The notes under the pieces are model-generated. The model was given only the letters and a program-made list of their open reading frames with translations, made no database searches and had not been told where the DNA came from. 64,000 nt of DNA. Source: Verrucomicrobiota bacterium. GTDB taxonomy: Bacteria; Verrucomicrobiota; Verrucomicrobiia; Palsa-1439. A program made the position numbers and the translations under genes. The DNA lies in assembly GCA_003164675.1 (NCBI GenBank), contig PLTX01000018.1:18765-82764 (forward strand). The letters run 5' to 3'. The first letter of the stretch is position 1; each line of letters begins with the position of its first letter. Shown here one piece after another: positions 15,932-55,571 of the stretch.

Positions 15932-17314
15932 CTAGAACTTGACGTTGACTTCGGCTCGGACTTCCTCCGCAACGCGACTGATGCCTGCGTTTTGATAAGC
16001 TTTCTCCGGCAAGAACGCGCCGTAGACAAGCTGCGCACGAACATCCTTGCTATAGTCGTAGCCGAGAATGCCATCCAATTCCCATCCCAAGTCGGCGTCG
16101 TTGCCGGTGTTGCCAGCGGCAAGAGTCGCCCACGACGGGCCGCCCCAGTCGACGTTGCCGTTGCTACCAGCGAGACCGTACTTGTCAGCCTTCATGTAAT
16201 AGTAACATTGCAGCGCGAGCGTGGTGTTCTCGTAAGGCTTCACCGAAGCGCCCAAGTTGAAGATCGCAATATCCGTCAGGGCTGGCATGAACAGATAGCC
16301 ATTGTACCCGTCCGCGTAGTCGAACCACGGGCGGAACTGGGCATTTCCAACACCCGTGTCAGTGCCCCTGCCACCACCAGACGCGTAAATGAAGTTTCCG
16401 TTCAATACCGGCACCCACTGCACGTCCTTGAACGTGTATTTACCACCGGCGTTCAGAAGAAACGCGCCGATCGTGCCTGTAACATTCGTGCCATTGGCGC
16501 CAAACTCATAGGCGGCTTCCACCCAGGTCTGCAGCGCATCCACTGGATTGATGTCGGCGCGCAACCCGACAATGATTGGGGAACTGCCCGCCAATGTCGC
16601 CGGCACGCGGCTCGAGGTGATCGATCCGCTGTGGCCCTGCGAAACCCAGCCGACGTAGGCCTCGATGTCCTTGATCGATGAGTCGCTCAGCTCATAGCGG
16701 GCGTTGACGAACAACAGATCGTTCGCGCCATCATGACTTGGCTGTCCACCGAAGGACTGGTTGTTGACCAACTCGGCGCCGACGATGTCGATCGTCAGCG
16801 GGTAATAGTCGAGCACGAGCCGGCCCGCGTCATAGTTGTATTCCTGCTCCACGCTGCTGAGGATCAACCCTCGGCCGTATTGCAGGAACTGGCGACCCAA
16901 TTTGAGGGTTGCCGGTGTGTAGAATATCTCGTTGAACTGGATGTAGGCCTCGTCCACGCCAATATCCCAAGCGCGGTCGATACTCCCGTTGAATCCGGCA
17001 TTGCCTGCCCCGGACGCATTATTAACGGCCTCGTCGTCACTGCCCCACAAACTCTCGGCTTTGAGAGTCACGACCACCAACACGTGGTCCTCGAGGTCGG
17101 CTTCGCAGGAAACCCGCGTTCGTTGTGAGATAAACGACTCGTTGCCCTTGTACTGACCCACGGGAGCGATGTCAGTCGACGCCCCTGCACTATCAAGAAA
17201 ATACCCGCGGATACGGATGTCCCCGCTGAGGCGGATATTCTGGACATCGGCGAATGTCTTGCCGGGCAATCCCCCCAAGGCTGCCAGCGCGACTACCAGC
17301 CATACTTTCTTCAC
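15932..17314 (-). CDS. Outer-membrane porin (alginate-export/AlgE-like beta barrel)
   Basis: The GTG at 17314 is the start because AAAGGAGGACTCA directly precedes it and a signal peptide follows (VKKVWLVVALAALGGLPGKT, cut after FADV or nearby). The 460-residue mature chain is rich in alternating aromatic/polar strands and Gly/Asn turns, and ends in VRAEVNVKF with a C-terminal Phe, the outer-membrane barrel signal. Strings such as LSGDIRIRGYF and LKLGRQFLQYGRG are typical of alginate_exp-type porins. It implies a diderm envelope. It is expressed from its own promoter with a leader of about 170 bases and has a strong terminator. The transported solute is unknown. Confidence 0.85.
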   Translation of the reverse strand: MKKVWLVVALAALGGLPGKTFADVQNIRLSGDIRIRGYFLDSAGASTDIAPVGQYKGNESFISQRTRVSCEADLEDHVLVVVTLKAESLWGSDDEAVNNASGAGNAGFNGSIDRAWDIGVDEAYIQFNEIFYTPATLKLGRQFLQYGRGLILSSVEQEYNYDAGRLVLDYYPLTIDIVGAELVNNQSFGGQPSHDGANDLLFVNARYELSDSSIKDIEAYVGWVSQGHSGSITSSRVPATLAGSSPIIVGLRADINPVDALQTWVEAAYEFGANGTNVTGTIGAFLLNAGGKYTFKDVQWVPVLNGNFIYASGGGRGTDTGVGNAQFRPWFDYADGYNGYLFMPALTDIAIFNLGASVKPYENTTLALQCYYYMKADKYGLAGSNGNVDWGGPSWATLAAGNTGNDADLGWELDGILGYDYSKDVRAQLVYGAFLPEKAYQNAGISRVAEEVRAEVNVKF

Positions 17315-17487
17315 TGAGTCCTCCTTTGTTTGTTTACGTTTGCTGTGCTTTGCGGCACAAGTCTTCTGATTTTCAGTTTTCTGGGTCAGTTTCCGCTTCG
17401 ATGACGAGCCTCTACTGCTCTCCCCTGTACGAACTTCCATCCCGAAGCGAAACCGGAAACCTCCCCCATCCTCCACTATTCGGGCGA

Positions 17488-17515
17488 AGTATAGACTTCG
17501 CCCAAAATGTGTCAA
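17488..17515 (-). promoter_or_regulatory. Consensus promoter of the porin gene
   Basis: On the minus strand TTGACA (17515-17510), a 16-base spacer and TATACT (17493-17488) form a near-perfect sigma-70 promoter. The same two hexamers and spacing occur before the NIDO protein gene. Confidence 0.8.
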
Positions 17516-17545: not shown

Positions 17546-18610
17546 TTACCGGGGCGCGAGTCGCCCCTTCAGCGCTTTCAAACGGGTCTCCTCTGACGAT
17601 GTTGGCGTTGAAGAAGCCAGGGTTGCGCAGCAGCTGACGAGCGAGTCCGCTGTGGATTGGTCCATCAGCCCCATCCGCACCAACGCCTGCACTTTTCGGT
17701 CAAACACTCCACAGTCCTTGCGTGCCGCGTAGAAGTTTCTCCGTTGCACCGCTTTGTTGACGATACTTATGCTCCTGTATAGCGTCCACTTTTGCGAACG
17801 GGAGATGCTCAGGCCGCTGATTTGCGCCTCGAATCCTTCAATGCCGGAGCACGCTCCGAGAACAGTGCCACCGCGCGCCTGGAACACAAACCGTCCGGGC
17901 ACACTGCTATTGAAGCTTCGATGAACCAAACCGGTTACGGAGTTGGAATCCAAAAAAGCCCCATTTATGGCCGAACCACTAATCTCATACGAGGTGTTGC
18001 TTCCGTTCGAATAGCCGGCGCGAGCAGAATCGCCACCCAAACCGTTAGTATTACTCCCACTGGCTGTGCCAGCTTCCCACTGAATCTGATCATAGTTGAA
18101 CTCAAAGTCAAAATCCCCCGCTGCAATGTCAGACCGGTCGATAATCACCAACTGGAAACTGTTACGATTCGTGTGCCCCAGTGACTCATTTTCTCCAAAA
18201 AAATCCACGTTAATCCAGTCGACACCGAACGCAGGGTGTCCATTGATCGTGTCTGTACCGTAAGTCACCGGTGAACCTCCCTCTCCCGTATCGACATCGG
18301 CAAAGAACGGCGCGATGATCGCTATGCTGTTGCTGGTCAATGGAAAGGGAGTATACGTCCCCAAGCTGTTCGTGATCGTCACGTTGCCGTTGTTGTTAAC
18401 GTACAGGTTCGAAAACGAAAGCCCGAAAAGATTCACCGTAAAGCCCATCGGCACAAGACCTGTCGAACCATCATCGTTGGCCGCGAAGGTGTTGTTGGTA
18501 AATCCGGGCAAATCCCGAATTGCACCCGCATGACTGCCCACCACCAATGGACCGGCCAGATAAAGCCCCACGAGCATAACACTCAAGAACCATAGACTTG
18601 GTCTCTTCAT
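17546..18610 (-). CDS. Secreted NIDO-domain protein
   Basis: The start MKRPSLWFLSVMLVGLYLAG at 18610 has an AGGAGA site and begins a signal peptide (cut after SHA). The mature protein, about 325 residues, contains a nidogen-type NIDO domain: FAANDDGS, VNLFGLSFSNLYVNNNGNVT, PFFADVDT, FQLVIIDRSD and FDFEFNYDQIQWEAG, in the order known from extracellular matrix and bacterial surface proteins. The C-terminal 120 residues hold several Cys and a helical segment without known domain. No PEP-CTERM or other sorting tail is seen. It is probably a secreted adhesion or matrix protein. Confidence 0.82.
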   Translation of the reverse strand: MKRPSLWFLSVMLVGLYLAGPLVVGSHAGAIRDLPGFTNNTFAANDDGSTGLVPMGFTVNLFGLSFSNLYVNNNGNVTITNSLGTYTPFPLTSNSIAIIAPFFADVDTGEGGSPVTYGTDTINGHPAFGVDWINVDFFGENESLGHTNRNSFQLVIIDRSDIAAGDFDFEFNYDQIQWEAGTASGSNTNGLGGDSARAGYSNGSNTSYEISGSAINGAFLDSNSVTGLVHRSFNSSVPGRFVFQARGGTVLGACSGIEGFEAQISGLSISRSQKWTLYRSISIVNKAVQRRNFYAARKDCGVFDRKVQALVRMGLMDQSTADSLVSCCATLASSTPTSSEETRLKALKGRLAPR

Positions 18611-18869
18611 TATCTTCTCTCCTTTTTCCGGGTTAAATTCCCCTTCGCTTAACGCATGCTTCGAGCGAACCGAGTTAATCCACTCACGGCTCTTACAGGA
18701 CACGAGAACAACGCCGTCGGCGACTCTAGAATCACGACACTGCAACCTGGCTTCATCATCGTGTCCGCTCCCTGCTTGTTGATGGTCGTTTCTCTATACG
18801 CCATCTCGAGCACTTCATCTGCCCGCAGGCCTCCATCCTGCAGACCCAGCCTCCCATCAACCGTCGCCG
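18611..18869 (-). other. Long 5' leader of the NIDO gene
   Basis: About 250 bases separate the promoter from the NIDO start. An 82-codon open frame reaches over much of it, but it starts at the promoter and has no ribosome site, so I treat the stretch as untranslated leader. No riboswitch family was recognised. Confidence 0.45.
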
Positions 18870-18915: not shown

Positions 18916-19629
18916 CTACGGCGCCCCGGATATTGGCGGCAATTGCAAACCACCCGACGCCGGTGCAGGCGACGGATTTGCAGAAGGTTGATCGGCCTTT
19001 TCCGGAACCACATCACGATTGAGAACCACCATGCGGAGATACGCCTTCTCAAACCAAGGCGAGTTTTGTCCTGCAGCCAGCAACTCCTCGTACAACTGCC
19101 GTGCCTCCTTCTTTTGGCCTTGAATCTCCAAGCACCGCGCCAGCCCCAGCCTGGCGGCATTCGCAATATAGCCGCTCGGATCCGAGTTTATGATCTGCAA
19201 GTACTGGGCCTTGGCACCATCCAGATTGCTCTGCGCCTCCAGTACTGCCGCCAAACCCAGCTTGCCCGACACCGCCAGCGGATGACTGGGATAATCCCTC
19301 AAGAGCGATTGATAAACACTCGCGGCTTCGGGATATCGGCCATTCTGGTAATACAAATCCGCCAGCCGTGCCAACGCCTCGGCTGCAACTGGCGACTTGG
19401 GGAAATCGCGCACGACCGCCTGTAGTGCCATCGAGTCCGTCGCATGCGCCAGGCTCTCGGTAGCCTGTTGGGCCTGATAATTCGTTTGGTGCTGCCAGTA
19501 GAGCAGTACCAGACCAAACGCGGCAACGGCTATCACTCCCCCCGTGACCTGCTTCCCGTGCTTCTCCCAAAACACCTCAAAGTCAAATTGGTCCGTTATT
19601 CGTAAGTCGTCTTGCGCTTCTCGTGCCAT
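18916..19629 (-). CDS. Membrane-anchored TPR protein (YfgM/YbgF-like)
   Basis: The 237 residues have a cytoplasmic N-terminus, one membrane helix (residues about 29-46, VTGGVIAVAAFGLVLLYW) and tetratricopeptide repeats. Two clear repeats are AAEALARLADLYYQNGRYPEAASVYQ and its following unit, with ARLGLARCLEIQGQKKEARQLYEELL later. The tail is Pro/Ser-rich. This is the plan of YfgM-like proteins that hand over secreted proteins, or of YbgF-type scaffolds. Facing the periplasm is inferred from the positive-inside rule. It lies 94 bases after the wecG-like gene and may be co-transcribed with it. Confidence 0.75.
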   Translation of the reverse strand: MAREAQDDLRITDQFDFEVFWEKHGKQVTGGVIAVAAFGLVLLYWQHQTNYQAQQATESLAHATDSMALQAVVRDFPKSPVAAEALARLADLYYQNGRYPEAASVYQSLLRDYPSHPLAVSGKLGLAAVLEAQSNLDGAKAQYLQIINSDPSGYIANAARLGLARCLEIQGQKKEARQLYEELLAAGQNSPWFEKAYLRMVVLNRDVVPEKADQPSANPSPAPASGGLQLPPISGAP

Positions 19630-19723: not shown

Positions 19724-20479
19724 CTACGACCGTTTCGCCCGCCATTCCCGCCAAACCAACCGGAAAAACGCCATGTCCTCATTCAAGTAACGTCGCCAAA
19801 GCCGCCGGGGCTCTTGAGCCAAACGGAACAGCCACTCCAACCCCAATCGCTGCATCCACTGCGGCGCACGCCGCAGAACTCCAGCTGTTACATCAAAGCT
19901 GCCGCCCACCCCCATCACGAACGGCACATGCATCTCCTGTTTCCATTTGCCCAGGAATAGCTCCTGTTTCGGTGACCCGACAGCCATGCAAAGCACATCC
20001 GGCTTGGCCTCTTTGATGTCCTGTACAATTTTGGACTCCTCGTCAGCTGCCCAATAGCCGTTTCGCCAGCCGGCCAAGTTCAATTTTGGATACATGGCTT
20101 TCAACACATCCACGGTCTTTGCCACGATCTCCTGACGTGCGCCCAGAAGGTATGGCCGAAGACCCCGTTCCGCGCAGCGGCCCATCAACGCATTGAATAA
20201 ATCTACTCCCGTAACCCGTTCTTTGATAGGACATTTGAACAATCTGGACACCCAAATCACCGGCTGTCCGTCGACGGTGATGAGGTCACAATCCAACACT
20301 GTCTTTCGCAGGCTTGGATTCGATTCCATTTTGACAATTTTGTCCACGTTGACAACAACATGCTGGTGAATTCCGCCATCCCCGATCATCGCTTCAATGC
20401 GATCAATCACCTCTGCCATGGTGAGGTTGTCTATCGGGACGCCAAATAGCGTAACTTTCTTTGGCAGATCTGGTTTCAT
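19724..20479 (-). CDS. WecG/TagA/CpsF-family glycosyltransferase (copy 2)
   Basis: GT26 family enzymes transfer ManNAc or ManNAcA (or another hexosamine/hexuronate) from UDP onto a lipid-linked acceptor. The 251-residue form starts at MKPDLPKKVTLFGVPIDNLT, whose ATG overlaps the upstream stop (ATGA). Marks are ITVDGQPVIW with the catalytic-type Asp, VTGVDLF, YLLGARQEIVAKT, VAVGSPKQELFLGKW-like AVGSPKQE, and GVGGSFDVTAGVLRRAPQWMQRLGLEWLFRL. It is the last gene of the eight-gene polysaccharide operon. The other copy in the same operon is about as long but differs in many places, so they probably use different acceptors. Confidence 0.9.
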   Translation of the reverse strand: MKPDLPKKVTLFGVPIDNLTMAEVIDRIEAMIGDGGIHQHVVVNVDKIVKMESNPSLRKTVLDCDLITVDGQPVIWVSRLFKCPIKERVTGVDLFNALMGRCAERGLRPYLLGARQEIVAKTVDVLKAMYPKLNLAGWRNGYWAADEESKIVQDIKEAKPDVLCMAVGSPKQELFLGKWKQEMHVPFVMGVGGSFDVTAGVLRRAPQWMQRLGLEWLFRLAQEPRRLWRRYLNEDMAFFRLVWREWRAKRS

Positions 20480-21528
20480 CGTGTTCGATCGATCACCGCA
20501 AGTAATTCCGCCAGTGCATAATACATCCACGCTTGCGTCCACCGCATGTAGCTGAGGCGGTTGGTCCCACGATGCCCGCGTTGATACCAGAAAAATCCGC
20601 GCTTGTCCCACATGTTTTCCACAGCCCATTCCGCTGCCTGAACGGCCTTCTCGACGCGCCCGAAAACCAGAAATGTCAGGATCCCCTGTGCGCTGCAATG
20701 GGCGTCAAATGGGTAGTCTCCGTTATGGTAATACCGCGGCGCGCCATCCGCCCGCCAGAATGTCTTCTCCCAAAACGCAAACCCACGCTCCGCGCTCTCC
20801 GCGAAGTCGTGGTCGCCGGTGCGTCTCTCGTACTCCTTGAGGGCCACGAGGCTGTATCCCGTGTGAAAATTGTCGATCCAATGTTGGTTCTCCGACTCGC
20901 CGTACCACCACGAACCGTCCGCTCGCTGGCGCTTGGCCGAGAATTCCATGCAATCGCGCCGCCCGAGCAACGCCGCCCCGATCATGTTAACGTTATGCAC
21001 CTGCGTATCGGAATGTGGCACATACGACAGCCAGCGCTCGCCGTTTCGGTCACGCAGCAACTGCCTTTCCAGGAAGCTCACGTCGCATTTCCGCCCCAAC
21101 CGTTCGTAGGCGCGCGCGGCAAACGCCGTGCAAATGAGATTGGGCGTCCCGCGCGGCGCAAAAAACGCCCGGGATTGCCAGGCGAAGGGATAGCCCCAGC
21201 CGCCTTGCGGCGTTCGCAGCGATTCCAGTTGATCCAATAACCGTTCGTCGCGACTTCCAAGCGCGGCCAGCGCCAGCGCTTTGGGGTTCAGTGTTGGTTG
21301 GATTCCGCACAGCGGCCGTAGGTTGATCGAACTGCGCCGATGCAATTGTGTCCACGCCTGACGCGCTAATTTTCCGGGCAACACGCGCGCCAGGGGCGAG
21401 TTCAAGCCGTCGTAGGGGTCGTACCCGCGCCAACCGCGCGAGGTGCCGTACTCGTGCAATTGCTGCCAGACTTCGCGAAATCGTTTGCTTCTGTCGGCGA
21501 CCGCCTTGGACATCTTCGGTGGGTTCAT
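20476..21528 (-). CDS. Alpha/alpha-toroid-like protein of the polysaccharide operon
   Basis: A 350-residue soluble protein with repeated helical hairpins and conserved aromatic/Gly strings: LRTPQGGWGYPFAWQSRAF, YGESENQHWIDNFHTGYSLVAL, YYHNGDYPFDAHCSAQGILT and LSYMRWTQAWMYYALAELL. This is the pattern of (alpha/alpha)6 barrels such as terpenoid cyclase/prenyltransferase-like or polysaccharide lyase/epimerase-like domains. Some relatives are mislabelled as delta-aminolevulinic acid dehydratase in databases; no ALAD motif is present. Its steady place next to the bi-domain oxidoreductase suggests a modifying step on the saccharide, which is an inference. Confidence 0.7.
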   Translation of the reverse strand: MNPPKMSKAVADRSKRFREVWQQLHEYGTSRGWRGYDPYDGLNSPLARVLPGKLARQAWTQLHRRSSINLRPLCGIQPTLNPKALALAALGSRDERLLDQLESLRTPQGGWGYPFAWQSRAFFAPRGTPNLICTAFAARAYERLGRKCDVSFLERQLLRDRNGERWLSYVPHSDTQVHNVNMIGAALLGRRDCMEFSAKRQRADGSWWYGESENQHWIDNFHTGYSLVALKEYERRTGDHDFAESAERGFAFWEKTFWRADGAPRYYHNGDYPFDAHCSAQGILTFLVFGRVEKAVQAAEWAVENMWDKRGFFWYQRGHRGTNRLSYMRWTQAWMYYALAELLAVIDRTR

Positions 21529-21534
21529 CAGCGG

Positions 21535-23631
21535 TTACAGTTCAATCGCTCGTCCTGTCCGGATCGATTCCAACACCGCCAGCGTCGCCCGTGTGCTGTC
21601 CACAATCTCTTCCAGCGGAATCGGCATCAGCCCGCCTGTCTTCACAGCGCGCACGAACTGCCTCACTTCCTCCGCCTGTCCTTTCTCGCGAACATCGTCT
21701 TCGATCACGTGCTTGCCGCCGGCGAACACCTCGACGTGTTCCTTTTTCAAATCCGTGTCGGCAACATTGAAGTAATCGATCGACCCCACTGATCCGTCGG
21801 CAAACCGAAGCGCGACCTGCACGTTCTCCCGGCCAAATCCCTGTGCAAACACCGACACCACTCGTGACCGCGCCGTAAACCGCAAGAAATCGATGAAATG
21901 GCACACCTCGCCGAGGATGCGACCGCCGCCCGTCTCCGGGTCGTTGATCCAATGATCCGACGGCAACGGCTGTACGCTCACGCGGTAGCGCATCACCAAC
22001 GGCCCCGCCAGGTCGCGCGCCCGCGCGGCAAACGGCGCAAACCGCCGATTGAAGCCGACCATCAACCGCGAATTGCCGCTTTTCTGGATGGTGCTGGTAA
22101 TTTCGTCGAGTTCCTCGCCGCGCAGACACAATGGCTTCTCGCAAAACACCGTTTTGCCCGCCTGCAATGCTTCGCAAACAATCTGCGCGTGCAAATCGTG
22201 CCGCGTCGCAATCAGGACCGCATTCACCGCCTTGTCCGCCAGCACGTCGCGCCAGTTGGTGGTGCTGGTCTCGAACCCAAATTTCTCTTTCGCCTTTTCC
22301 GCTTTCACGCCCGTGGCCGTGCACACCATGCGCAACGTCACGTCCGCGTTCGCTTTGAACTGCGGTAACAAGACTCCCTGCGCATAATTCCCGGCGCCAA
22401 TCACACCGAGCACCACCGACGAGTGGCGGGCAGCCGGATTGTTGGACAGGCGTCCCGCCTGTCCCGTTCCCTCCATGCCAAACAGGCGGGACGCCTGTTC
22501 AACTCGTTCCGGATACTTCAATAACACACCCACAAATCGCTCTTCGGTTTTCCCGGTGATCAACTCGTACGCCTTCGGTGCGTCCCCAATCGCGAACGTA
22601 TGCGTCATCAGCGGCGCGACATCCACCCGGTTGCCGGCCAGCAATTGCACGAACGCTTCCATGTTGCGTTGCTCGGTCCAGCGTACGTACCCAATCGGGT
22701 AATCGACGCCCTTTTCTTCGTAGAGCGGATCGTACCGTCCCGGGCCGTAGCTGCGGGAAAGCCTGAATTCGAGTTCCTTCTCATAGAACGGGCCGCGTGG
22801 AAGTTCCATGCCCGTTACGCCGACCATCACCACCCGTCCGCGTTCGCGGCAAATCTTCGCGGCCAATTCAATCGGGTCATTCGTGGGCGCCGCCGCCGTA
22901 ATAATCGCGGCGTCAACCCCGAACCCGTTCGTCAGCCGTGCTGCTGTGCGTTCGATGTCGCCGCTGGTACGCGTTGCCACCGCATCGCAGCCGCACCGCG
23001 CGGCCAATTCACAGGCCTCGGCGCTCACGTCGATTCCCAGCACGACGCAACCCGCCGCCTTCAATATCTGAACGGTCAATTGGCCAACCAATCCGAGGCC
23101 GATCACTGCCACAGATTCCCCAAGACGTGCATCCGCCTGTCGCACGCCCTGCATCGCAATCGCGCCGAGCGTGGTAAACACCGCGTGCTCCAGCGCCACG
23201 CCCTCCGGCAGCTTCGCGCAAAGGTTTTGCGGTACCACAACCTCCTCGGCGTGGCTCGCGTAGTCCTGTCCGCCGCACGCCACGCGGTCGCCGACCGACA
23301 ATCCGGTCACGCCTTCGCCCACCTCGATAATCGTGCCGGCGCATGAATAGCCGAGCGCTTTCCACTGATCGAGCCGCGATTGGACCTTGCGCACCGCGGC
23401 GGAAAGACCTTCGCGTTTAACCGTCTCGACCACGCGCTTGACCAGGTCCGGCCGCGACCGTGCCTTGCCGATCAGCGATTGCTGCGCGAGGTTGACCGTC
23501 GCCCGTTCCGTGCCCGCGCTGACCAGCGAGTACGCGTTGCGCACGCGCACGCAGCCCGGCGCCAGCGCTGGCGATGGTACGTCTACCAGCTTGATGTCGC
23601 CGGTCTTGAAATCCTGAACGAGTTGTTTCAC
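21535..23631 (-). CDS. Bi-domain oxidoreductase (zinc-ADH-like plus Gfo/Idh/MocA-like)
   Basis: The 698-residue product joins two dehydrogenase modules. Residues 1-380 are medium-chain ADH-like: LGYSCAGTIIEVGEGVTGLS, VGDRVACGG and the NAD motif VIGLGLVGQL. Residues about 408-698 are Gfo/Idh/MocA-like: GVIGAGNYAQGVLL, VFCEKPLCL with the EKP Lys. Such fusions occur in exopolysaccharide loci and are thought to oxidise or epimerise a sugar. The linker contains a translated palindromic repeat (22444-22499), giving the unusual string VEQASRLFGMEG...TGQAGRLS. The start is GTG, overlapping the hisC-like stop. Confidence 0.9.
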   Translation of the reverse strand: MKQLVQDFKTGDIKLVDVPSPALAPGCVRVRNAYSLVSAGTERATVNLAQQSLIGKARSRPDLVKRVVETVKREGLSAAVRKVQSRLDQWKALGYSCAGTIIEVGEGVTGLSVGDRVACGGQDYASHAEEVVVPQNLCAKLPEGVALEHAVFTTLGAIAMQGVRQADARLGESVAVIGLGLVGQLTVQILKAAGCVVLGIDVSAEACELAARCGCDAVATRTSGDIERTAARLTNGFGVDAAIITAAAPTNDPIELAAKICRERGRVVMVGVTGMELPRGPFYEKELEFRLSRSYGPGRYDPLYEEKGVDYPIGYVRWTEQRNMEAFVQLLAGNRVDVAPLMTHTFAIGDAPKAYELITGKTEERFVGVLLKYPERVEQASRLFGMEGTGQAGRLSNNPAARHSSVVLGVIGAGNYAQGVLLPQFKANADVTLRMVCTATGVKAEKAKEKFGFETSTTNWRDVLADKAVNAVLIATRHDLHAQIVCEALQAGKTVFCEKPLCLRGEELDEITSTIQKSGNSRLMVGFNRRFAPFAARARDLAGPLVMRYRVSVQPLPSDHWINDPETGGGRILGEVCHFIDFLRFTARSRVVSVFAQGFGRENVQVALRFADGSVGSIDYFNVADTDLKKEHVEVFAGGKHVIEDDVREKGQAEEVRQFVRAVKTGGLMPIPLEEIVDSTRATLAVLESIRTGRAIEL
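22444..22499. repeat. Palindromic repeat inserted in frame in the bi-domain oxidoreductase gene
   Basis: Two palindromes, GGACAGGCG-TCC-CGCCTGTCC (22444-22464) and AACAGGCG-GGA-CGCCTGTT (22481-22499), flank 16 bases, and share the core ACAGGCG/CGCCTGT. The sequence is open in the gene frame and adds about 20 residues between the two enzyme domains. It looks like a dispersed mobile palindrome accepted in a flexible linker. Confidence 0.75.
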
Positions 23632-24725
23632 GGCTCCAGCAATCCTTCGGCTCGAAGCTCCTGGACGATTCCCAGAAATCGTTGCGTCTGCTCGCCGTTG
23701 CCCATGGTCACGCGCAAACAGCCTTTCATTTGCGGGACCGAGTCCTTGTTGCTGACGTAGACGTTGCGCGCGGCCAGCGCCTGTACCGCGCGCGCCGGCT
23801 CGTGGACCTGCCAGATGATGAAATTCGCCTGCGTGTTGTGAACAACAAATCCGAGTCCCTTCAACCCGTCAACGACCTGGTGTCGCGCGCGACCACATTC
23901 CGCGACCGTCTTCCGCATGTACTCCAGGTCTTCCACCGCCGCGTGCGCCGCGACCTGCGTCAGACTGCTGACGGCCCACGGCGCGAGCACGCGCGCCAAT
24001 ATGTCCAGCACCGCCGGCTGGGCGACCACATAGCCGCACCGCATCCCCGCCAGGGAAAACGCCTTGGAAAACGAGCGCAACACCAGCAGATTCGGGTGCG
24101 TCTCGGTCAATCCAACACTGCTCTCGCCATAGTACTCGACGTACGCTTCGTCGAGCACGACCAGCGCGTCCCGCCGCTTCTCCAACAGAGCGCGGATCCG
24201 GTCCCGCGGATAACCAACGCCTGTCGGGTTGTTCGGGTTTGCGAGATAAATGATCTTGTGCGTGCCACCCTTGGCGAGCAGTTCCTGGAAATCAGGTGCA
24301 AACGGTTTGCTGAACTGGAACGACTCGATCCGCGCCTGTTGCAGTTTGCACTGCACCGAGAAGACGGCGTACACGGGCGTCACGATTAGCACCGGGTCAT
24401 CCTTGGTCAGAAAGGCGCGCGCGATCAACTCCATTGCCATGTTCGACCCGTTCGCCACGAGCAGGAACTCCGCCGGCACGTTCAGGTAACGGCCAAGCGA
24501 TCGCCGCAACGCCGTGCACGCGCTGTTGGGATACCAATTCAGGGTCGCGTCCTCGGCGACAGCGGCGCGTAACGCCGCCAGCACCCGTGGTGACGGCGGC
24601 GCCTGGCACTCGTTCAGATCCATCTTCAGCACGCCCGGGCCGCTGGCGACCGGCTCGACGGCGTGATAGCCGTCCAGAGCCGCCATGTGCGGCGGCACCC
24701 ATTTGTCCGTCGGGAAAGCGCTCAT
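23628..24725 (-). CDS. HisC-like PLP aminotransferase
   Basis: Class I/II fold aminotransferase of 365 residues. Marks are LIVTPVYAVFSV, ANPNNPTGVGYP, VVLDEAYVEYYG, RSFSKAFSLAGMRCGY with the PLP-binding Lys, and the C-terminal Arg in LRVTMGNGEQT. Histidinol-phosphate aminotransferase uses these same marks. No other his gene is here; in this operon it more likely transaminates a polysaccharide or lipid precursor, or an amino-acid-like decoration, which is an inference. Start ATG overlaps the PHP gene stop (ATGA) and its own stop overlaps the next start (GTGA). Confidence 0.85.
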   Translation of the reverse strand: MSAFPTDKWVPPHMAALDGYHAVEPVASGPGVLKMDLNECQAPPSPRVLAALRAAVAEDATLNWYPNSACTALRRSLGRYLNVPAEFLLVANGSNMAMELIARAFLTKDDPVLIVTPVYAVFSVQCKLQQARIESFQFSKPFAPDFQELLAKGGTHKIIYLANPNNPTGVGYPRDRIRALLEKRRDALVVLDEAYVEYYGESSVGLTETHPNLLVLRSFSKAFSLAGMRCGYVVAQPAVLDILARVLAPWAVSSLTQVAAHAAVEDLEYMRKTVAECGRARHQVVDGLKGLGFVVHNTQANFIIWQVHEPARAVQALAARNVYVSNKDSVPQMKGCLRVTMGNGEQTQRFLGIVQELRAEGLLEP

Positions 24726-25489
24726 CCGTGAAACTCTTTTCGTACAGGTTCGTGTGCCGCGCGCTCAATTTGGCGCCGCACGCGCAACCAGTTTACCTTT
24801 TTGGCGCAATTGCGCAATGCTCTCGGAAGCAGTTTGCGCACCTGCGGGGCCGTATTCGCGCGGAAATTCGAGTCCGCCGCATGCAAAACCGCCAGGTCCT
24901 GCGCCGGCCCGAACAGCTTGCGCGTCGCTTGCCGCAGCACCTCCGTCGTCAATTCGCCGGAGGCCTCCGGGAATTCCACACAGGCGCGCCCCACGTCCAC
25001 CGCATAATGCGCGTCGCTCCCCGCCTGTGCGGGCAGGCCCCGTTCGCGCGCCAGCCTGGCCGCCGACTCGTTACGAGAGGCCGGCTCGTAGCCGTTGCAT
25101 ACTTCGATGGCATCCACGTTCCGCAGCAATTCTTCGTCAACGCCACCGCGCAACAGTCCCGACGTCGGGTGAAACGGATGCGGCAACACGACAAAACCCC
25201 GTTGTGCCCGGATTTCGTCCGCTGCCTCCCGCCATTGGCGCGCGGCGATCTTGCGTTCCAGGAACAGACCGATGATGTGCGCCCCGCCTTCCAACGAGAC
25301 TTCCGCGCCCACGATGACCGCGAGACCGTGGTTCTTGTCGCGGGCGCGCAAGGCGCCTTCGATCTCGTCGTGGTCGGTGATCGCCAGGTGCGTCAGGCCG
25401 CGACGCGACGCATGTTCGAGCACCGCGTCCACCGCCGCGAAGCTGTCGTGCGAGTAGCACGTATGACAATGGAGGTCGGCGCGGATCAT
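24722..25489 (-). CDS. PHP-domain phosphoesterase
   Basis: The 255-residue protein has the polymerase-and-histidinol-phosphatase metal motifs: DLHCHTCYSHDS at residues 5-16, AITDHDEIEG near residue 37, GAEVSLEGG, VLPHPFHPTSG near residue 100 and AGSDAHY near residue 160. PHP enzymes hydrolyse phosphoesters with a trinuclear metal site. Together with the HisC-like gene next door it mimics the last two steps of histidine synthesis (aminotransferase plus phosphatase), so the pair could process a phosphorylated precursor in sequence. The start overlaps the CapK-like stop as ATGA. Confidence 0.85.
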   Translation of the reverse strand: MIRADLHCHTCYSHDSFAAVDAVLEHASRRGLTHLAITDHDEIEGALRARDKNHGLAVIVGAEVSLEGGAHIIGLFLERKIAARQWREAADEIRAQRGFVVLPHPFHPTSGLLRGGVDEELLRNVDAIEVCNGYEPASRNESAARLARERGLPAQAGSDAHYAVDVGRACVEFPEASGELTTEVLRQATRKLFGPAQDLAVLHAADSNFRANTAPQVRKLLPRALRNCAKKVNWLRVRRQIERAAHEPVRKEFHG

Positions 25490-26811
25490 GGTTTCACCAG
25501 CGACACCACGTTGCGAATCTTGCCGCTGGGCTCGGGTTGAATGTGCTCGACCAATTCGAAATCAATTTTGACGGCGGCACCCAAGAAGCGCTCCAGTTTA
25601 CCCCGCAATTCGTCGGTCTCGGCGCCATTGAACGCGCGGGCCGGTACGATGCGCACCACCACGGTGTTCGGCTCGGTTTGCACGACCTGGAACTGACGCA
25701 CCTTGTCGTACGTTTCAAACAGTGTATAGAACCGGACCGAAGGAATGTACTTCTGCTCGCCCGTGATAATCGTGTCGTTGACGCGCCCGAGAACGCGATC
25801 GATGCATGGCAGTCCGCGTCCGCAGCCGCACGGTTCCTTCGCCGGGAGCGCGAGATCGCCGAGATCGTACCGAATCAGCGGCATGGCGTGGTTGATCAAG
25901 CCGGTGCCGATCATCCGCTGGCCGGCGTCGCCCGTGGCATTCGGGAGCGGCACCAATTCGAGAATGCCGCTCTCGCCATTGACGTGGAACAGGCCGCGCC
26001 GCTCGCACTGACAGGCGGTGACGACGCGCTCGTTGCTGCCCCACCAGTCGTACACGGGACATTGCAGGACGCGCTCGATGACCGATCGCATCTCCGGGGA
26101 GAGTGTTTCGCTGGAGCAGAGCACGGCCTGCGGCGTATGCACGCGGAGTCCCTCGCTGGCCGCAAAATGGGCGAAAATATAAATCGATGACGGATAGCCG
26201 CGGACAAACCCCGGTTGGTACTGGTTGAATCTCTCCACGTAGGCGCGCAGGTTGGCCGGCTTCATGTCATACACGCTGAAGAACAGCGTGCGGGTGCGTC
26301 GGTCCAGATGCCACAGCGGATCGGTGGGACGTTTGGGAATGTAATGACGGAACGCCACGATGCGCGCCCCGGTGCGATACCCCGCCCAGCGCCAGAACCG
26401 GATCGAGTGCGCCATCTCACAGGCTTTCTGTTCGACGGTGAGGAAGAACCGTAACGGCTCGCCCGTTGATCCGCTCGTGTGATCTTCGATGAGGTGATCC
26501 CGGTCGCTGTAGCGATGGAAGAATTGCTCCGGATGTTCCCGCAACTGTTGTTTCTCCAGCACGGGAAGGCGAGCCAGATCGGACAGGTCGTGGAAATCGT
26601 CCGGCGTTGCGCCCAACGTTTGAAACAGCGAGCGGTAATACGGCACGTTCTCGGCCGCATCGCGCAGCAACCAGCGCAGTTGGGCCAACTGCCGCGCGTG
26701 GAATTCATCGGCGGACAACCACTGGGTGCGGCGCATCTCGCGCCAGTAGCGCCACGTGCCGTAGAGGTAGCGACGGACCACTCCGGGCTGTGCGCGAGAA
26801 GCTATCGTCAT
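25486..26811 (-). CDS. CapK-like adenylate-forming ligase (phenylacetate-CoA ligase family)
   Basis: The 441-residue ANL-superfamily protein has the AMP-binding loop HTSGSTGEPLRFF near residue 112, YDWWGSNERV near residue 255 (A5 region), YDLGDLA and the hinge-like GRVNDTIITGEQKYI. CapK relatives sit in capsule operons and activate a carboxylate, amino acid or acyl group for attachment to the saccharide; the true substrate is unknown. A GAGG ribosome site lies 5 bases before the ATG. It comes 24 bases after the initiating transferase gene and overlaps the PHP gene. Confidence 0.85.
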   Translation of the reverse strand: MTIASRAQPGVVRRYLYGTWRYWREMRRTQWLSADEFHARQLAQLRWLLRDAAENVPYYRSLFQTLGATPDDFHDLSDLARLPVLEKQQLREHPEQFFHRYSDRDHLIEDHTSGSTGEPLRFFLTVEQKACEMAHSIRFWRWAGYRTGARIVAFRHYIPKRPTDPLWHLDRRTRTLFFSVYDMKPANLRAYVERFNQYQPGFVRGYPSSIYIFAHFAASEGLRVHTPQAVLCSSETLSPEMRSVIERVLQCPVYDWWGSNERVVTACQCERRGLFHVNGESGILELVPLPNATGDAGQRMIGTGLINHAMPLIRYDLGDLALPAKEPCGCGRGLPCIDRVLGRVNDTIITGEQKYIPSVRFYTLFETYDKVRQFQVVQTEPNTVVVRIVPARAFNGAETDELRGKLERFLGAAVKIDFELVEHIQPEPSGKIRNVVSLVKP

Positions 26812-26835
26812 CTTGACCTCACTGGTGTCTCCGGT

Positions 26836-28365
26836 TCAATACGCTCCACGACCGCGCACCACCACAGAGAACGTGCGCGCCATCAGGTATAAATCCAGCC
26901 ACATGGACCAGTTGCGAATGTAATACGTATCCAATCGTTGTTGGACCTCGATGTCCCCTTCGCTGCGGGCGCTCACCTGCCACAAGCCGGTCACGCCCGG
27001 CAGCACGCGGTGACGCAACGTCCGAAACTTCTCGTCGAATGCCTGCAAATGGTAATCCGGGAACGGTCTTGGCCCGACCAGGCTCATCTCGCCCGCGATC
27101 ACGTTCCACAATTGCGGAAGTTCATCCAAACTGAATTTACGCAAGAGGGTTCCCAGAAACGGAAGAATCCGCGGATCGTTCTTCAGCTTGAAATACCGTT
27201 GCCACTCATTCCGCGCCTCGGGATCCCGTTCCAAAAGCTTCTCCAGCCGCTTATCAGCGTCGATATACATCGTGCGAAGCTTCCAAATCCGGATGCGGCG
27301 ACCCTCGAGCCCCTCGCGCTCCTGGCCGTAGACCGGGTTTCCCGGGCTAACCAGCCGAATCCACACCATCAGGGCCAACAGCAACGGCGAGAGCAAAATG
27401 ATCAGCGGGATCGCCACGACCAGATCGAGACTGCGCTTGACCCAACGGTTGCTGGCGATGAGCAGATTATGGCGAATCTCCAAACCCAGAATGCCCCCCA
27501 CATCCCGCGCCACGATCCACAGGCTGGCCAGACCGGCCAGGTCCGGGATCACCATCATGTGCGGGAAGCAATCGCCGTATTCCTGATGGATATCGAACAT
27601 TCGCTTGTTGGAACCTTCGTCCAAGGCCACAATGCAATACGGAATCCCCCGTGTCCGACCAAACTGCCAGGCACGTTCCAACCCGCCCAGAATCGGCACG
27701 CCCTCAATCTGCGTCTCGCCGCAAGGGGTGTCGGTCAGAATGCCCACCGGTTTCAATCCGAGTTCGGGTTGATGCAAGAGAATATCGACGACCCGACGGG
27801 CTGTCTTGCCCGAACCAAAAATCGCCACCGACGATCCCCACCAGGATCGTCGGGCGCAGATATTCCGCAACAAGGCGCGCCCGCACGGCACCAAAATCAA
27901 GGCGATGATCCACGCGACACCGATAACCAGGCGCGAAATGAACAAAAACCCCAGCATAATATACATGCCCGCTACCGCGGTCATGAACGCCCAAGTTGTG
28001 CCCACCGTCGTGCGCCGCAATTCTTCCACCGGCGTCAGGAAAATCCTGGCGTTGAGACCCGCCCCACGGTACAGGCCCTCAATCCCGAACGCCAACACCC
28101 AGAGGAAGAGTGCCGGCCATAGCCGCAAGTATTGGGGATAGTCGAATTTGCCGAGCATTGTGAACCGCAGCGCCATGCCGATTCCCCAAGCCAAGCCGAC
28201 GCTACAGAGATCCGACAACACCAGCAAAGACATCATCGCCCAAGGCCGCGTTGACCGCATCACGCGAGGAAGCAGCGTGCCCCGCGTCCGATCAAGCCCG
28301 GACGACGCCGACCGATCCCCGGGTGTTCTATCGGGATTCTGTTGCAACGAAGGTGTGCCCATCAT
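26836..28365 (-). CDS. WbaP/WcaJ-type polyprenyl-phosphate sugar-1-phosphotransferase
   Basis: This enzyme starts the repeat unit by moving a sugar-1-phosphate onto undecaprenyl phosphate in the inner membrane. The 509 residues hold about four N-terminal membrane helices, a central nucleotide-binding-like domain (SVAIFGSGKTARRVVDIL), a re-entrant helix (SLDLVVAIPLIILLSPLLLA) and the catalytic domain: RRIRIWKLRTMY, DELPQLWNVIAGEMSLVGPRP with the Asp-Glu pair, and VLPGVTGLWQVSARS. Substrate could be galactose or glucose; not decidable. An AGGA site precedes the start, 9 bases after the first wecG-like stop. Confidence 0.93.
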   Translation of the reverse strand: MMGTPSLQQNPDRTPGDRSASSGLDRTRGTLLPRVMRSTRPWAMMSLLVLSDLCSVGLAWGIGMALRFTMLGKFDYPQYLRLWPALFLWVLAFGIEGLYRGAGLNARIFLTPVEELRRTTVGTTWAFMTAVAGMYIMLGFLFISRLVIGVAWIIALILVPCGRALLRNICARRSWWGSSVAIFGSGKTARRVVDILLHQPELGLKPVGILTDTPCGETQIEGVPILGGLERAWQFGRTRGIPYCIVALDEGSNKRMFDIHQEYGDCFPHMMVIPDLAGLASLWIVARDVGGILGLEIRHNLLIASNRWVKRSLDLVVAIPLIILLSPLLLALMVWIRLVSPGNPVYGQEREGLEGRRIRIWKLRTMYIDADKRLEKLLERDPEARNEWQRYFKLKNDPRILPFLGTLLRKFSLDELPQLWNVIAGEMSLVGPRPFPDYHLQAFDEKFRTLRHRVLPGVTGLWQVSARSEGDIEVQQRLDTYYIRNWSMWLDLYLMARTFSVVVRGRGAY

Positions 28366-28374
28366 CGTCAGTTC

Positions 28375-29151
28375 CTAATTTGCGCCTACGCGACGGTTAT
28401 CGATTCCCCCCAGCAGTTGCCGCGTGACCAGCCAGAGAAAGCGCGGGTTGTTTTTGAAATAGCGTCGCCACAGCCGACGCGGATCCATGAACAGACGAAA
28501 GAGCCATTCCAACCCGAACCGCTGCATCCACCGTGGGGCCTGCCTGACCCGGCCGGAGTGAAAATCGAATGCGGCGCCGACCGCCAACATCACGGCCTGT
28601 ATGCGATTCCGATGCCCGGCGACCCACTGTTCCTGTTTGGGACAGCCGAGCCCAACGAACAGGATGCGAGTTCCCGAGGCGTTGATCGCCTGCACAACCG
28701 CCTCATCCTCGTCGCGCGTCAATGGCCGAAACGGGGGTGAGTAGGCATAGCCGATTTCAAGCCGCGGAAACCGCGCGCGGTAGCTCTTCTGCAATGCATC
28801 CAAGATTTCTTGCGTGCCGCCGTACAATCCCACCGGAATTCCCGCCTCGGCGGCAGCCTGACACACGGTCAGGGTCAAATCCGGCCCATAAACCCGTGTT
28901 TGATCTTTCAGCCCGAGTCGCCGCAGGGCCCACACCAGCGGCATCCCGTCCGGCGTCACGAGGTCAGCGGCATTCACCACCCGCTGAATATCCTCCACAT
29001 CATGAGCTTCCATCACCATGTGGACGTTGCAGGCGCAAACGTAGCGCGACTCGCTCGCCCGCGCCCATTGCAGGATGCGCGCCGACGCGTCGGCATAACT
29101 CGTCGCGTCCACCCGCGTGCCGAGTATGAAACGATGTTGGAGATCGGTCAT
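28375..29151 (-). CDS. WecG/TagA/CpsF-family glycosyltransferase (copy 1)
   Basis: First gene of the eight-gene operon; 258 residues from MTDLQHRFILGTRVDATSY. GT26 marks are CNVHMVMEAHD, LVTPDGMPLVWALRRLG with the catalytic-type Asp, VYGPDLTL, LYGGTQEILDAL, GLGCPKQEQWVAGH and GAAFDFHSGRVRQAPRWMQR. Two UDP-GlcNAc 2-epimerase genes lie further along in the same locus, so UDP-ManNAc is a likely donor. The longer frame to 29193 has no better start. Copy 2 closes the operon. Confidence 0.9.
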   Translation of the reverse strand: MTDLQHRFILGTRVDATSYADASARILQWARASESRYVCACNVHMVMEAHDVEDIQRVVNAADLVTPDGMPLVWALRRLGLKDQTRVYGPDLTLTVCQAAAEAGIPVGLYGGTQEILDALQKSYRARFPRLEIGYAYSPPFRPLTRDEDEAVVQAINASGTRILFVGLGCPKQEQWVAGHRNRIQAVMLAVGAAFDFHSGRVRQAPRWMQRFGLEWLFRLFMDPRRLWRRYFKNNPRFLWLVTRQLLGGIDNRRVGAN

Positions 29152-29378
29152 CACAGCGTGTGGTATTCCCTCGTCACTCGTATCATAGGGCACCTAGAAT
29201 AGCAATTGGCCTACCAGACAGCTCAGCACCGAGATTTCCCAACGCGTTGATTAGAAGGCTGTTCCGTTTTGCCACCAACACAAAGATCGGGCTGGCGGCC
29301 TGCGTTCGCCTATTTATCGAGGACTACCCGCGTCGAACCAGCGAAGAATTCCGGAACCTACACCTGGCGAACCTTGGG
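29152..29378. other. Gap upstream of the operon: no gene seen
   Basis: Holds the presumed promoter region of the minus-strand operon. Small open frames on both strands show no family likeness. No clear promoter hexamers were found. Confidence 0.4.
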
Positions 29379-33475: not shown

Positions 33476-34999
33476 ATGAAGCTTCAGGAAATCGTCAGCA
33501 ACCCATACGAAGGACGGGAGGTGATCCGTCGCTGGATCGCCATGGCGGTCTGGGCCGTGATGGCGCTGATCATTGCGGACTGGATCGCGACCGAGCACCT
33601 GCTGCGGCTGGCGGCGTTGGGGGGCATCGCCTTGGGGATACTGGTGGCGGCAGGAATGAGACGAAATGCCTGGCTGTTGATTATCGTCGGCTACGCCTTT
33701 AGGGGTTCGATCCACGCGCTTCACGTGCCGTTGTCGCTCTATGACGTGTTGGTGCTGCTGACAACGTTCTCGTACATGTTGCAGCGTTTCGCGGCCGGCT
33801 CGTTCACTCAGCGGTCGTTGGGTGTGTTGGACTGGCTACTGGGCCTCAACTGCGCCCTGATGGCAGTGACATTTCTGTGTCACCCCGTGGGGTTGCGCTC
33901 ACTCGGCTCGCAAACCATGGGAGCCGCGCCGTACTTTAATATTTTTATTGCGTGCTGTGCGTTTTGGGTGATAGTGCATCTGCCGGATTCCTATCGGAGC
34001 GTCAGCCGAATTCCGTTGTGGCTGATTGCCGGGGTAAGCTTTTCTGCCCTTGTACCGATCATGGTGCACATCTTTCCTGCCATCACACCTTATGCCTGGT
34101 TTTTCTACGGCAACGTCGACATCTCGGAATATGCGGCGAGTCTCCATGCGGCCACTTCCACTGCGCTCGAGCCGCAAGTCAGACGCTTCACGGATCTGGC
34201 GCCCTTTGGGCTGATGCTGATACAGGTTCTGGCGGCTTATTACCCGCTGCGCACGTTGCTTAATCCACTGCGCCGGCGGTTTTATCTGTTTGTGTTGGGC
34301 ATTGCGGCCGTGCTGGCCTCGGGTTTCCGAAACACCTTGCTGTTCGCGTTCGCTTCGCTGGCGTTGGCGTCCTGGTTCCACCGTGGCTGGCGCGAAGTGA
34401 TCATGGGGGGCGCGACCGGGCTGTTGCTGCTGGGCCTGCTGGTGTTCGGCCAGGGGCGGTTCTATCAATTGCCGTTGCCGGCCCAACGGGCGCTTTCGTT
34501 TCTGCCCGGGCAGTGGGCGGAACCGATCGAGGGGGAAGTCAAGTCGAGTAATTCGCGTTTCGAATGGTGGCGTCAGATTCTCGAAGAAGGCACCATCAAG
34601 AACTGGTGGCTGGGCGACGGGTTCGGGGTCAGTGAGAACGACTATGAACTGCTAAGAGGCCCAGGCCATTTTGCGGAATTCGCCACGCTGAGCGGCGCCT
34701 TCCACAACGGCCCATTGACCACCATTCACTATGCCGGGGTAGTCGGGCTGGTTCTGTTCTATTCGCTCATGATCGCCGCGGCGATCCAGTCGGTGAAATG
34801 CGTTCAGCGGTGCCGTGGCACGCCGCTGCTGCCGGTGGCGATTTTCCTGGCCATCCAATTGGTGTGGATTCCCATCCATTACACATTTGCGTTCGGTGCG
34901 TTCAACGTACAACTGCCGGAGCACATCTTCCTGATTGGCCTGCTGTTGTTGGTCTGGCGCATGAGTGAAGCCAAGTGGGCCTGTTGCCCAAATCACTGA
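33476..34999 (+). CDS. O-antigen ligase/polymerase-like membrane protein (copy A)
   Basis: A 507-residue protein with about 10-12 membrane helices and a large outer loop with SGAFHNGPLTTIHYAGVVGL. This is the layout of Wzy polymerases and WaaL ligases, although no single signature decides between them. It matches the protein at 57247-58815 almost from end to end (AFRGSIHAL, HPVGLRSLGS, PYFNIFI, WLGDGFGVSEND). After RMSE the last residues AKWACCPNH come from an inverted-repeat element, so the original tail seems to have been lost. It acts on lipid-linked saccharide in the periplasm, by inference. Confidence 0.75.
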   Translation: MKLQEIVSNPYEGREVIRRWIAMAVWAVMALIIADWIATEHLLRLAALGGIALGILVAAGMRRNAWLLIIVGYAFRGSIHALHVPLSLYDVLVLLTTFSYMLQRFAAGSFTQRSLGVLDWLLGLNCALMAVTFLCHPVGLRSLGSQTMGAAPYFNIFIACCAFWVIVHLPDSYRSVSRIPLWLIAGVSFSALVPIMVHIFPAITPYAWFFYGNVDISEYAASLHAATSTALEPQVRRFTDLAPFGLMLIQVLAAYYPLRTLLNPLRRRFYLFVLGIAAVLASGFRNTLLFAFASLALASWFHRGWREVIMGGATGLLLLGLLVFGQGRFYQLPLPAQRALSFLPGQWAEPIEGEVKSSNSRFEWWRQILEEGTIKNWWLGDGFGVSENDYELLRGPGHFAEFATLSGAFHNGPLTTIHYAGVVGLVLFYSLMIAAAIQSVKCVQRCRGTPLLPVAIFLAIQLVWIPIHYTFAFGAFNVQLPEHIFLIGLLLLVWRMSEAKWACCPNH

Positions 35000-35117
35000 A
35001 TTGTGTTTTCCAAATGGTTTTCTCGATCCGGAGCCCTCGATTTCCAAGGAAACTCGGGGTGTCACAATACGAATATGGAGCCTCTTGTGGTGTGTGGAGC
35101 ATTTGGGCAACAGGCCC
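34977..35117. mobile_element. Small element bounded by perfect 17-base inverted repeats
   Basis: GGGCCTGTTGCCCAAAT (34977-34993) has its exact reverse complement at 35101-35117; 107 bases lie between. Internal sequence can form a hairpin (CCCTCG...CGGGG). There is no open frame. It covers the 3' end of the ligase-like gene. It could be a MITE-like insertion or the edges of a lost IS. Confidence 0.6.
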
Positions 35118-35159
35118 AAGTGACCTGACCCCCTTATACGCGGGTGATAGACATTGATG

Positions 35160-35935
35160 CTCTCAACTCGTTTCAAAGTTGGCGAGCCGTAAACTAGCAC
35201 ATTGTTGCCTCTGCGATCAACCTCATCAATTGTCCATGGTCCATCTGTAATCTCTGCCCCATGCGCCGGTGTCGTGCCTAGCGTGTTATGCACCTTGCAG
35301 AAGTTGAACACCGCCACAAACAAACTGATTGCGGCCTTGTGGTTGCCCGGCTTCCTTGACCAGCCGGGCCCTAGACGGGCAAATCGCTTGTTGAAGTGCC
35401 GGACGGTCAGATTGGTACGCTCCACGAAGCTGGTACCAATACGGTCTTTGCGAGGCACACCGGCGACTATGTCCACTCGGACCTCGGTGCACCGGGGCGG
35501 GGAATGGCGCCGATTCGGGTTTGTGTTGTTGGGGTCATGCTGGCTGTAAATCTTTTGCATAACGTCGTAGTTCAAGCGCGGCAGCAAATAGCGCCGGATG
35601 ATTTCGGGGTACGGTTGCCAGCCGTCAGTGGTGATCTGGATACGACCCGCAATCCGTTGCTCCACGTCGGCAATAAACGCCTCTGTGTTGGGGTAATCAC
35701 GCTTTCCCGTGTGGTAGGACACAATCAGCTTCTCACGGGCTGTGACGGCCAAATAGGTGTACTGGTCGCCTCATTCTGTGTCATCTGCTGAGGTGATGCG
35801 TTGTTGTCGGATACCGACCCGGCTCCAAAGCTCATCAATTTCGAGTGAACCGGTCTCCATGTTTCGCACCAGCTTGTCGTGGAGCTGGTCGCACTTGTCG
35901 CCAACCACCCGCAAGCCACGAACAGCCGCTGCGCA
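35160..35935 (-). pseudogene. IS1-like transposase relic
   Basis: One minus frame gives VRGLRVVGDKCDQLHDKLVR, the acidic segment IDELWSRVG, then a TGA (35771-35773), then GDQYTYLAVTAREKLIVSYH, ITTDGWQPYPEIIRR with a DDE Asp, VERTNLTVRHFNKRFARLG and SLFVAVFNFCKVHNTLGTTPA. These strings are diagnostic for IS1-type DDE transposases. The N-terminal helix-turn-helix part is missing and replaced by an IS5 fragment. Not functional as it stands. Confidence 0.8.
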
Positions 35936-51128: not shown

Positions 51129-52226
51129 TCAGACTCCCAGCTTTTCCTGCAGCGCCAAAATGATTCGTGCGGCGGCGTGGCCGTCCCAGCCTTCGATGGG
51201 GCAGGCCCCAAGGCGGCGCCCGCGCTGAAGGGCGGCCTGGGCCGCCGCGCTGAGACTTTCTTTTTCTGGGTCCAGCAGACGGTTGGTCCCCTCGGTGATT
51301 GTGATGGGCCGTTCGGTGTTCGGCCGCACGGTCAGGCACGGAATGCCAAGATAAGAGGTCTCCTCCTGGATGCCGCCCGAATCGGTCACCACCAGCGCCG
51401 CCCGTGTTTCCAGCGCGATAAAATCCAGATAACTCAGCGGCTCCGTCAGCACCAAGCCCCGGGCTCCGGTGCCAATGCCAGCCTGGTCCAGCATCTTCCT
51501 CGTGCGCGGATGCACGGGGAAAACCACCGGCAACTGTTGGCTCAATTCCACCAGGTTGTCCCTCAGGAGTTTCAATCGTGCCGGCGCATCGACATTGGAC
51601 GGGCGGTGGAGTGTCACCAGGACAAACGGGCGCTCTTGCACTCCCAGCTCGCGGGGTTTGGTCGAGGCCGCCACGCGCGGCAGCAGCATCACCAGGCTGT
51701 CAATCATCACGTTGCCTACAAAGCGGATCTTGCTCGCCGGTATCCCTTCCCGGAGCAATTGTTCGTCGGCACTGCGGCAACTGGTCAACAGCAGGTCCGA
51801 CACGGCATCCGTCAGAAGACGGTTGATCTCTTCAGGCATCGTGCGGTCGAAGCTGCGCAGGCCCGACTCGATATGGGCCACCGGCACGCCCAGTTTTACC
51901 GCAGCCAACGCCCCCGCCATCGTTGAATTGACGTCGCCCACTACCACCAGCAGGTCGGGCCGGTCCCGCGTGAAGAGTTCTTCCAGCGCAATCAGCACCT
52001 TGGCCGTCTGCACTCCGTGAGGCCCCGAACCGACTCCAAGAAAATGCGTGGGCTTCTCCATCTCGAAGTCACTGAAAAAAACGTCCGACATCAGTTCATC
52101 GTAGTGCTGGCCGGTATGGACGAGCACCTGACGAATCGGCAGGCGGGCCGCGGCAGCGGCTTTCCAGACCGGAAAAACTTTCATGTAATTAGGCCGCGCG
52201 CCGGCCAGAAAGACGACTGTTTTCAT
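51129..52226 (-). CDS. wecB: UDP-N-acetylglucosamine 2-epimerase, non-hydrolysing (copy 1)
   Basis: WecB interconverts UDP-GlcNAc and UDP-ManNAc. The 365 residues start at MKTVVFLAGARPNYMKVFPV. Marks include VHTGQHYDELMSDVFF, VVGDVNSTMAGALAA, VAHIESGLRSFDRTMPEEINR, VFPVHPRTRKML and VVTDSGGIQEETSYLGIPCL. The GARPNYMK start is the variant common in one sub-group. It heads the long minus-strand operon to 41841. The product fits the WecG-type transferases. Confidence 0.93.
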   Translation of the reverse strand: MKTVVFLAGARPNYMKVFPVWKAAAAARLPIRQVLVHTGQHYDELMSDVFFSDFEMEKPTHFLGVGSGPHGVQTAKVLIALEELFTRDRPDLLVVVGDVNSTMAGALAAVKLGVPVAHIESGLRSFDRTMPEEINRLLTDAVSDLLLTSCRSADEQLLREGIPASKIRFVGNVMIDSLVMLLPRVAASTKPRELGVQERPFVLVTLHRPSNVDAPARLKLLRDNLVELSQQLPVVFPVHPRTRKMLDQAGIGTGARGLVLTEPLSYLDFIALETRAALVVTDSGGIQEETSYLGIPCLTVRPNTERPITITEGTNRLLDPEKESLSAAAQAALQRGRRLGACPIEGWDGHAAARIILALQEKLGV

Positions 52227-55500: not shown

Positions 55501-55571
55501 ACAACCATCGATTCGCGGGTTTCGGTCTGCCGTAGGGGGAGCGTCACCCGCCCTTTTTCCGTGTGCACCTA

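Follow-up and report, generated by a model that had tools for sequence, protein, structure and literature searches.

This locus raises the question of whether eight closely packed genes, among them those for a CapK-like ligase, a PHP-family protein and a HisC-like aminotransferase (together “the trio”), form a single pathway, and what the trio would contribute to it. The genes lie in the window, by which we mean the whole stretch of 64,000 nucleotides analysed here from contig PLTX01000018.1 of a Verrucomicrobiota bacterium. They are co-directional on the minus strand and run head to tail from 29193 down to 19724 (Table 1). From WecG1 to WecG2, read 5′ to 3′, the junctions measure +9, +24, -4, -4, -4, +6 and -4 bp, so that four of the gene pairs overlap by 4 bp (ATGA/GTGA type) and the other three are 6 to 24 bp apart. 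Such overlaps and short same-direction gaps are the pattern expected of a single translationally coupled operon. The initial annotation had described an eight-gene coupled operon, and this description is borne out, as are its gene assignments by Pfam and NCBIfam and its toroid by AlphaFold2 and Foldseek. Position 29151, which it gave as the end of the row, is an internal ATG of WecG1, the start codon being the GTG at 29193.

Table 1. Genes of the operon and the conserved gene downstream of it, in order of transcription.
Feature	Coordinates	Strand	Evidence	Remark
WecG1, WecG/TagA/CpsF-type glycosyltransferase (GT26)	28375..29193	-	PF03808, 213.1 bits	
WbaP-type undecaprenyl-phosphate sugar-1-phosphate transferase	26836..28365	-	TIGR03022, 430.8 bits (cut-off 403)	
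CapK, PaaK-family adenylate-forming ligase	25486..26811	-	Distant PaaK/AMP-ligase similarity and motifs	
PHP-family metallo-phosphoesterase-like protein	24722..25489	-	PF02811 and PF13263 (PHP, PHP_C)	
HisC-like PLP aminotransferase	23628..24725	-	TIGR01141, 277.0 bits (cut-off 276.55)	
Bi-domain oxidoreductase, N-terminal half MDR (ADH-like), C-terminal half Gfo/Idh/MocA	21535..23631	-	PF00107 (ADH_zinc_N), PF01408 (GFO_IDH_MocA)	Conserved core
Alpha/alpha-toroid protein, family-less	20476..21528	-	AlphaFold2 and Foldseek	
WecG2, WecG-type glycosyltransferase	19724..20479	-	PF03808, 213.7 bits	Conserved core
TPR protein directly downstream of WecG2	18916..19629	-	TPR matches	Conserved 3′ neighbour, synteny anchor

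Two features around the operon were recorded in passing. Downstream of the operon, a protein with a NIDO (nidogen-like) domain (17546-18745) adjoins one that resembles alginate-export porins (15932-17515). A minus-strand ORF at 34652-35752 looked in part like an IS1-type transposase by eye and had no match in Pfam; it is possibly an insertion-sequence remnant inside the glycan island.

Comparison with close relatives separated the operon into two parts. In two genomes of the same genus (G001 and G002) and in the family, the gene order is CapK, bi-domain oxidoreductase, toroid, WecB-type epimerase and WecG2. Identity to the window proteins within the genus is 72-74% for the bi-domain oxidoreductase, 68% for the toroid and 64% for WecG2, and within the family it is 60-74%, 59-69% and 60-67%, respectively. 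In G002 (locus L027), a TPR protein stands at the same place and has 237 amino acids, which is the length of the window TPR protein. On the other hand, the CapK in the same-genus slot is a different, distant form, about 35% identical to that of the window, and window-type PHP and HisC proteins were found neither in G001 and G002 nor in most of the family. Since the core is kept within one genus while CapK differs and PHP and HisC are absent, CapK-PHP-HisC is to be read as an accessory set. The same comparison places the boundary between old and exchanged genes at HisC/bi-domain oxidoreductase, near 23631. By GC and GC3, the exchanged genes were indistinguishable from the core.

Judged from gene order and identity, the operon is a composite, and its eight genes do not descend from a single ancestral pathway. 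The initial annotation had taken all eight for one private side pathway and had suggested comparing gene order across genomes. That comparison speaks against it and, for the set as a whole, gives an outcome that the annotation had itself named as refuting: in both same-genus genomes and most of the family, the bi-domain oxidoreductase-toroid-WecG2 core persists, but PHP and HisC are absent and CapK is of the distant form.

Several smaller differences were seen in the same region. The window has lost WecB from the core slot and carries two WecB-like genes at other places (51129-52295 and 55563-56696). CapK is preceded in family members by a gene for a DUF362 protein (for example L033 12917-14389), an unexpected companion in a polysaccharide operon. 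In G001 (locus L028, 9648-13065), three extra ORFs, one of them a carbamoyltransferase, stand between the bi-domain oxidoreductase and the toroid, so the oxidoreductase/toroid slot has been exchanged too.

The toroid protein had no match in Pfam or NCBIfam. It was modelled with AlphaFold2 from an alignment of nine homologues (A1), and the model reached a pLDDT of 90.1 and a pTM of 0.91. Foldseek searches with this model returned class II terpene cyclases, AGE epimerases, GH105 and GH76 at a TM of about 0.5. By its model, the protein is an alpha/alpha toroid; it shares the overall fold of these enzymes and differs from them in having no sequence family, and the fold gives no reading of its activity. 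A toroid also follows the oxidoreductase in another locus (L101, G376). In the MDR half of the window oxidoreductase, the GHE/GHD and CxxC motifs are both absent, so this half probably lacks the usual alcohol dehydrogenase zinc sites.

CapK-like ligases and bi-domain oxidoreductases are present in polysaccharide clusters of several phyla. Exopolysaccharide clusters that combine a bi-domain oxidoreductase with a heparinase II/III or “alginate lyase family” protein share with the window the oxidoreductase, often with a CapK-like ligase directly before it, as well as a sugar transferase and glycosyltransferases. They differ from the window in having neither PHP nor HisC. A further difference is the stand-alone toroid, which holds the slot where most bi-domain oxidoreductase operons carry a heparinase II/III-like protein; two heparinase queries found no match in the window.

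The trio itself recurs in other genomes. In G004, which belongs to another genus of the same family, WecG1, CapK, PHP and HisC follow one another in the window order at 59-61% identity (61-67% for CapK). WecG1 thus adjoins the trio there too, and is 60% identical. No WbaP stands amid this row, the bi-domain gene is not adjacent, and the toroid lies on another contig. A third arrangement was found in G222 and G225, members of another family of the class: PHP is followed by a single ORF of about 800 amino acids that joins CapK to HisC, after which come genes for the bi-domain oxidoreductase and a heparinase-like protein. This CapK::HisC fusion (L068 7087-9564, L069 10401-12797, L127-L134) occurs in 11 of the 48 genomes of one genus, and in one of the 11 it is split over two contigs. 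Ten of the 11 have PHP directly upstream of the fusion, and the remaining one stops at a contig edge. Downstream, where the contig permits, the bi-domain gene comes directly, after GT4 and WecG genes, or after another single gene. One genome of this genus (G234) keeps PHP, CapK and the bi-domain gene but not HisC, which is therefore not an obligatory member of the locus.

Among 384 genomes of the class, PHP of the trio type was confined to the window genome, G004 and the fusion genus, and the E-value fell from 5e-98 to 4e-29 at the next relative. No CapK or HisC was found in the vicinity of further PHP relatives in the phylum (L070-L082 and five of L215-L221). Approached from the bi-domain oxidoreductase, which 30 of 388 phylum genomes possess, the result was similar: in none of the 26 that lie outside the window and the fusion genus did the stretch around the gene contain PHP or HisC. 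Other phyla, as sampled through plasmid records, yielded no trio, and no plasmid record held both fusion domains in one place. A contig scan with PHP alone as the query gave one match, which was unrelated.

We built trees of HisC, CapK and PHP, all unrooted and covering one phylum; those of CapK and PHP also included a few plasmid records. In the HisC tree, a branch (98/92) set the window and G004 proteins and the 11 fused forms apart from 39 further HisC sequences of the phylum, including the his-operon and aromatic-neighbourhood copies of the window's own genome. A first HisC tree without G004 had joined the trio weakly (67/25); the higher support was due to the addition of G004, which broke a long branch. 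The CapK proteins of the trio formed one clade (82/84), and PHP, in a tree that left G004 out, gave a weak trio grouping (53/42). A shared origin of the set is therefore well supported for HisC and moderately for CapK. The recurrence and the trees give good support to the trio as a real unit, which would have been inherited together and have its own history. Its treatment as a unit in the initial annotation agrees with its joint occurrence in G004 and, with CapK and HisC fused, beside the bi-domain oxidoreductase in another family.

The HisC-like protein passes the TIGR01141 cut-off by the barest margin. It has the fold, the PLP lysine and most pocket residues of HisC in common, and the PLP-binding residues N165, D192, Y195, K221 (catalytic) and R229 are kept. 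In the HspAT of M. tuberculosis, the substrate phosphate is gripped by Arg337, Arg346 and Asn176 (PMC4703992). The position equivalent to Arg337, as assigned by alignment, is Ser325 in the window and G004 proteins (f1) and arginine in all 39 other HisC proteins and all 11 fused forms. The second arginine of the phosphate clamp (R338) is kept in the window protein, and the fused forms keep both. A pocket tyrosine supplied by the neighbouring protomer is replaced by Trp250 in the f1 proteins and by lysine in the fused forms. Thus, both branches have departed from the histidinol-phosphate pocket, each in its own way, and the replaced clamp arginine makes a phosphorylated substrate for the f1 HisC itself less likely.

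The same genome encodes two better-scoring HisC proteins. One is flanked by HisD and HisB on a different contig (G000:C15), and the other, which would by its neighbourhood serve aromatic synthesis, has prephenate dehydratase and DAHP synthase next to it (G000:C123). The trio protein is not the cell's only HisC, in line with the initial annotation. We rejected it as the cell's histidine enzyme: a better HisC sits in the his operon, and the window protein falls outside the housekeeping HisC clade, with no his genes nearby.

The metal-ligand motifs of PHP, namely HCH (HxH), TDHD, E63, PHP at 103-105 and SDAH, are intact in all nine aligned members (A2). By score, the protein is not of the HisJ subfamily of PHP-type histidinol phosphatases, with 21.6 bits over about 40 residues against a cut-off of 90.2. 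CapK keeps all of its motifs: TSGSTG at 112 (A3), WGSNE at 257 (A5), IRYDLGD at 313 (A7) and PSGK at 428 (C-terminal lysine). Its better scores against PaaK-family models were 57-128 bits, far under all cut-offs. With the PaaK/phenylacetate-CoA ligase family it shares the adenylation motifs and a weak overall similarity; it differs in its location in a polysaccharide operon and in the HisC fusion seen elsewhere. CapK is predicted to be a PaaK-like adenylate-forming ligase that activates a carboxylate. At the level of sequence, then, the comparison shows a composite structure and an exchange, as well as a recurring set with a CapK-HisC fusion and intact catalytic motifs.

On balance, we think it probable that an older polysaccharide core had its 5′ part swapped for the genes of the accessory set, and that the trio supplies a decoration of the polysaccharide. 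The older core would consist of the bi-domain oxidoreductase, the toroid and WecG2, followed by the TPR gene, and WecG1, WbaP and CapK-PHP-HisC would have replaced its 5′ part. From the protein families and the adjacency to a lipid-linked polysaccharide pathway, we infer that the trio most likely produces an amino compound and, by activating an acid, joins it to the polysaccharide. The HisC-like PLP enzyme would aminate a small keto compound from an amino donor, PHP would strip phosphate off that compound or a precursor, and CapK would adenylate a carboxylic acid to form an amide (or ester). The product would decorate a sugar precursor or a lipid-linked unit, with WbaP starting the polysaccharide and the WecG enzymes extending it. 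The CapK::HisC fusion points to consecutive reactions for CapK and HisC. CapK may also act for the core, because bi-domain oxidoreductases often adjoin CapK without PHP or HisC; in that case, HisC and PHP may change which compound is attached. The amino- or acyl-type decoration of a saccharide suggested by the initial annotation is plausible on this evidence.

Another possibility is a decoration with an amino acid and no phosphate step, in which HisC would make the amino acid from a keto acid, CapK would adenylate its carboxyl and join it to a sugar amine, and PHP would be a hydrolase acting on the polymer or another intermediate. The fusion would then unite the making of an amino acid with the activation of its carboxyl, and Ser325 in both f1 proteins fits a substrate that carries no phosphate. 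However, both clamp arginines are present in the fused HisC, and no partner is more constant than PHP, whose metal ligands are intact; we regard this alternative as rather unlikely.

It could also be speculated that chance shuffling in a glycan island brought the genes together and that the trio has no joint function. Polysaccharide islands are frequently reshuffled, and HisC is missing from G234. Yet the same three families are held together in three separate arrangements (the window, G004 and the fused form), these are related by the trees, and in one of them two of the three proteins are fused, so that shuffling is very unlikely. A role of the HisC-like and PHP proteins as a spare histidinol-phosphate aminotransferase and phosphatase backing histidine synthesis is likewise very unlikely. 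The 0.5 bit by which the TIGR01141 cut-off is exceeded and the weak similarity of PHP to HisJ would fit such a role, but the latter covers only the short, low-scoring segment described above, the true HisC stands between HisD and HisB, and the window protein belongs to a separate clade and lacks the otherwise invariant clamp arginine. A fusion to CapK would, moreover, be senseless for histidine.

Returning to the decoration of a polysaccharide with an amino compound, a search of the literature on the bi-domain oxidoreductase, on CapK with HisC and on CapK with PHP found no paper giving a product. We propose tentatively that CapK-PHP-HisC is a new defined polysaccharide decoration pathway, in which a PLP enzyme and an adenylating ligase, fused to each other in some lineages, would together with a PHP phosphatase build an unusual amine or amino-acid substituent and attach it. 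Automatic annotation would call the window HisC a histidine enzyme, despite the separate HisC in the genome. The natural CapK-HisC fusion and the constant PHP partner narrow the question to one testable three-enzyme pathway, and the set probably adds a nitrogen-containing ornament to the sugar chain.
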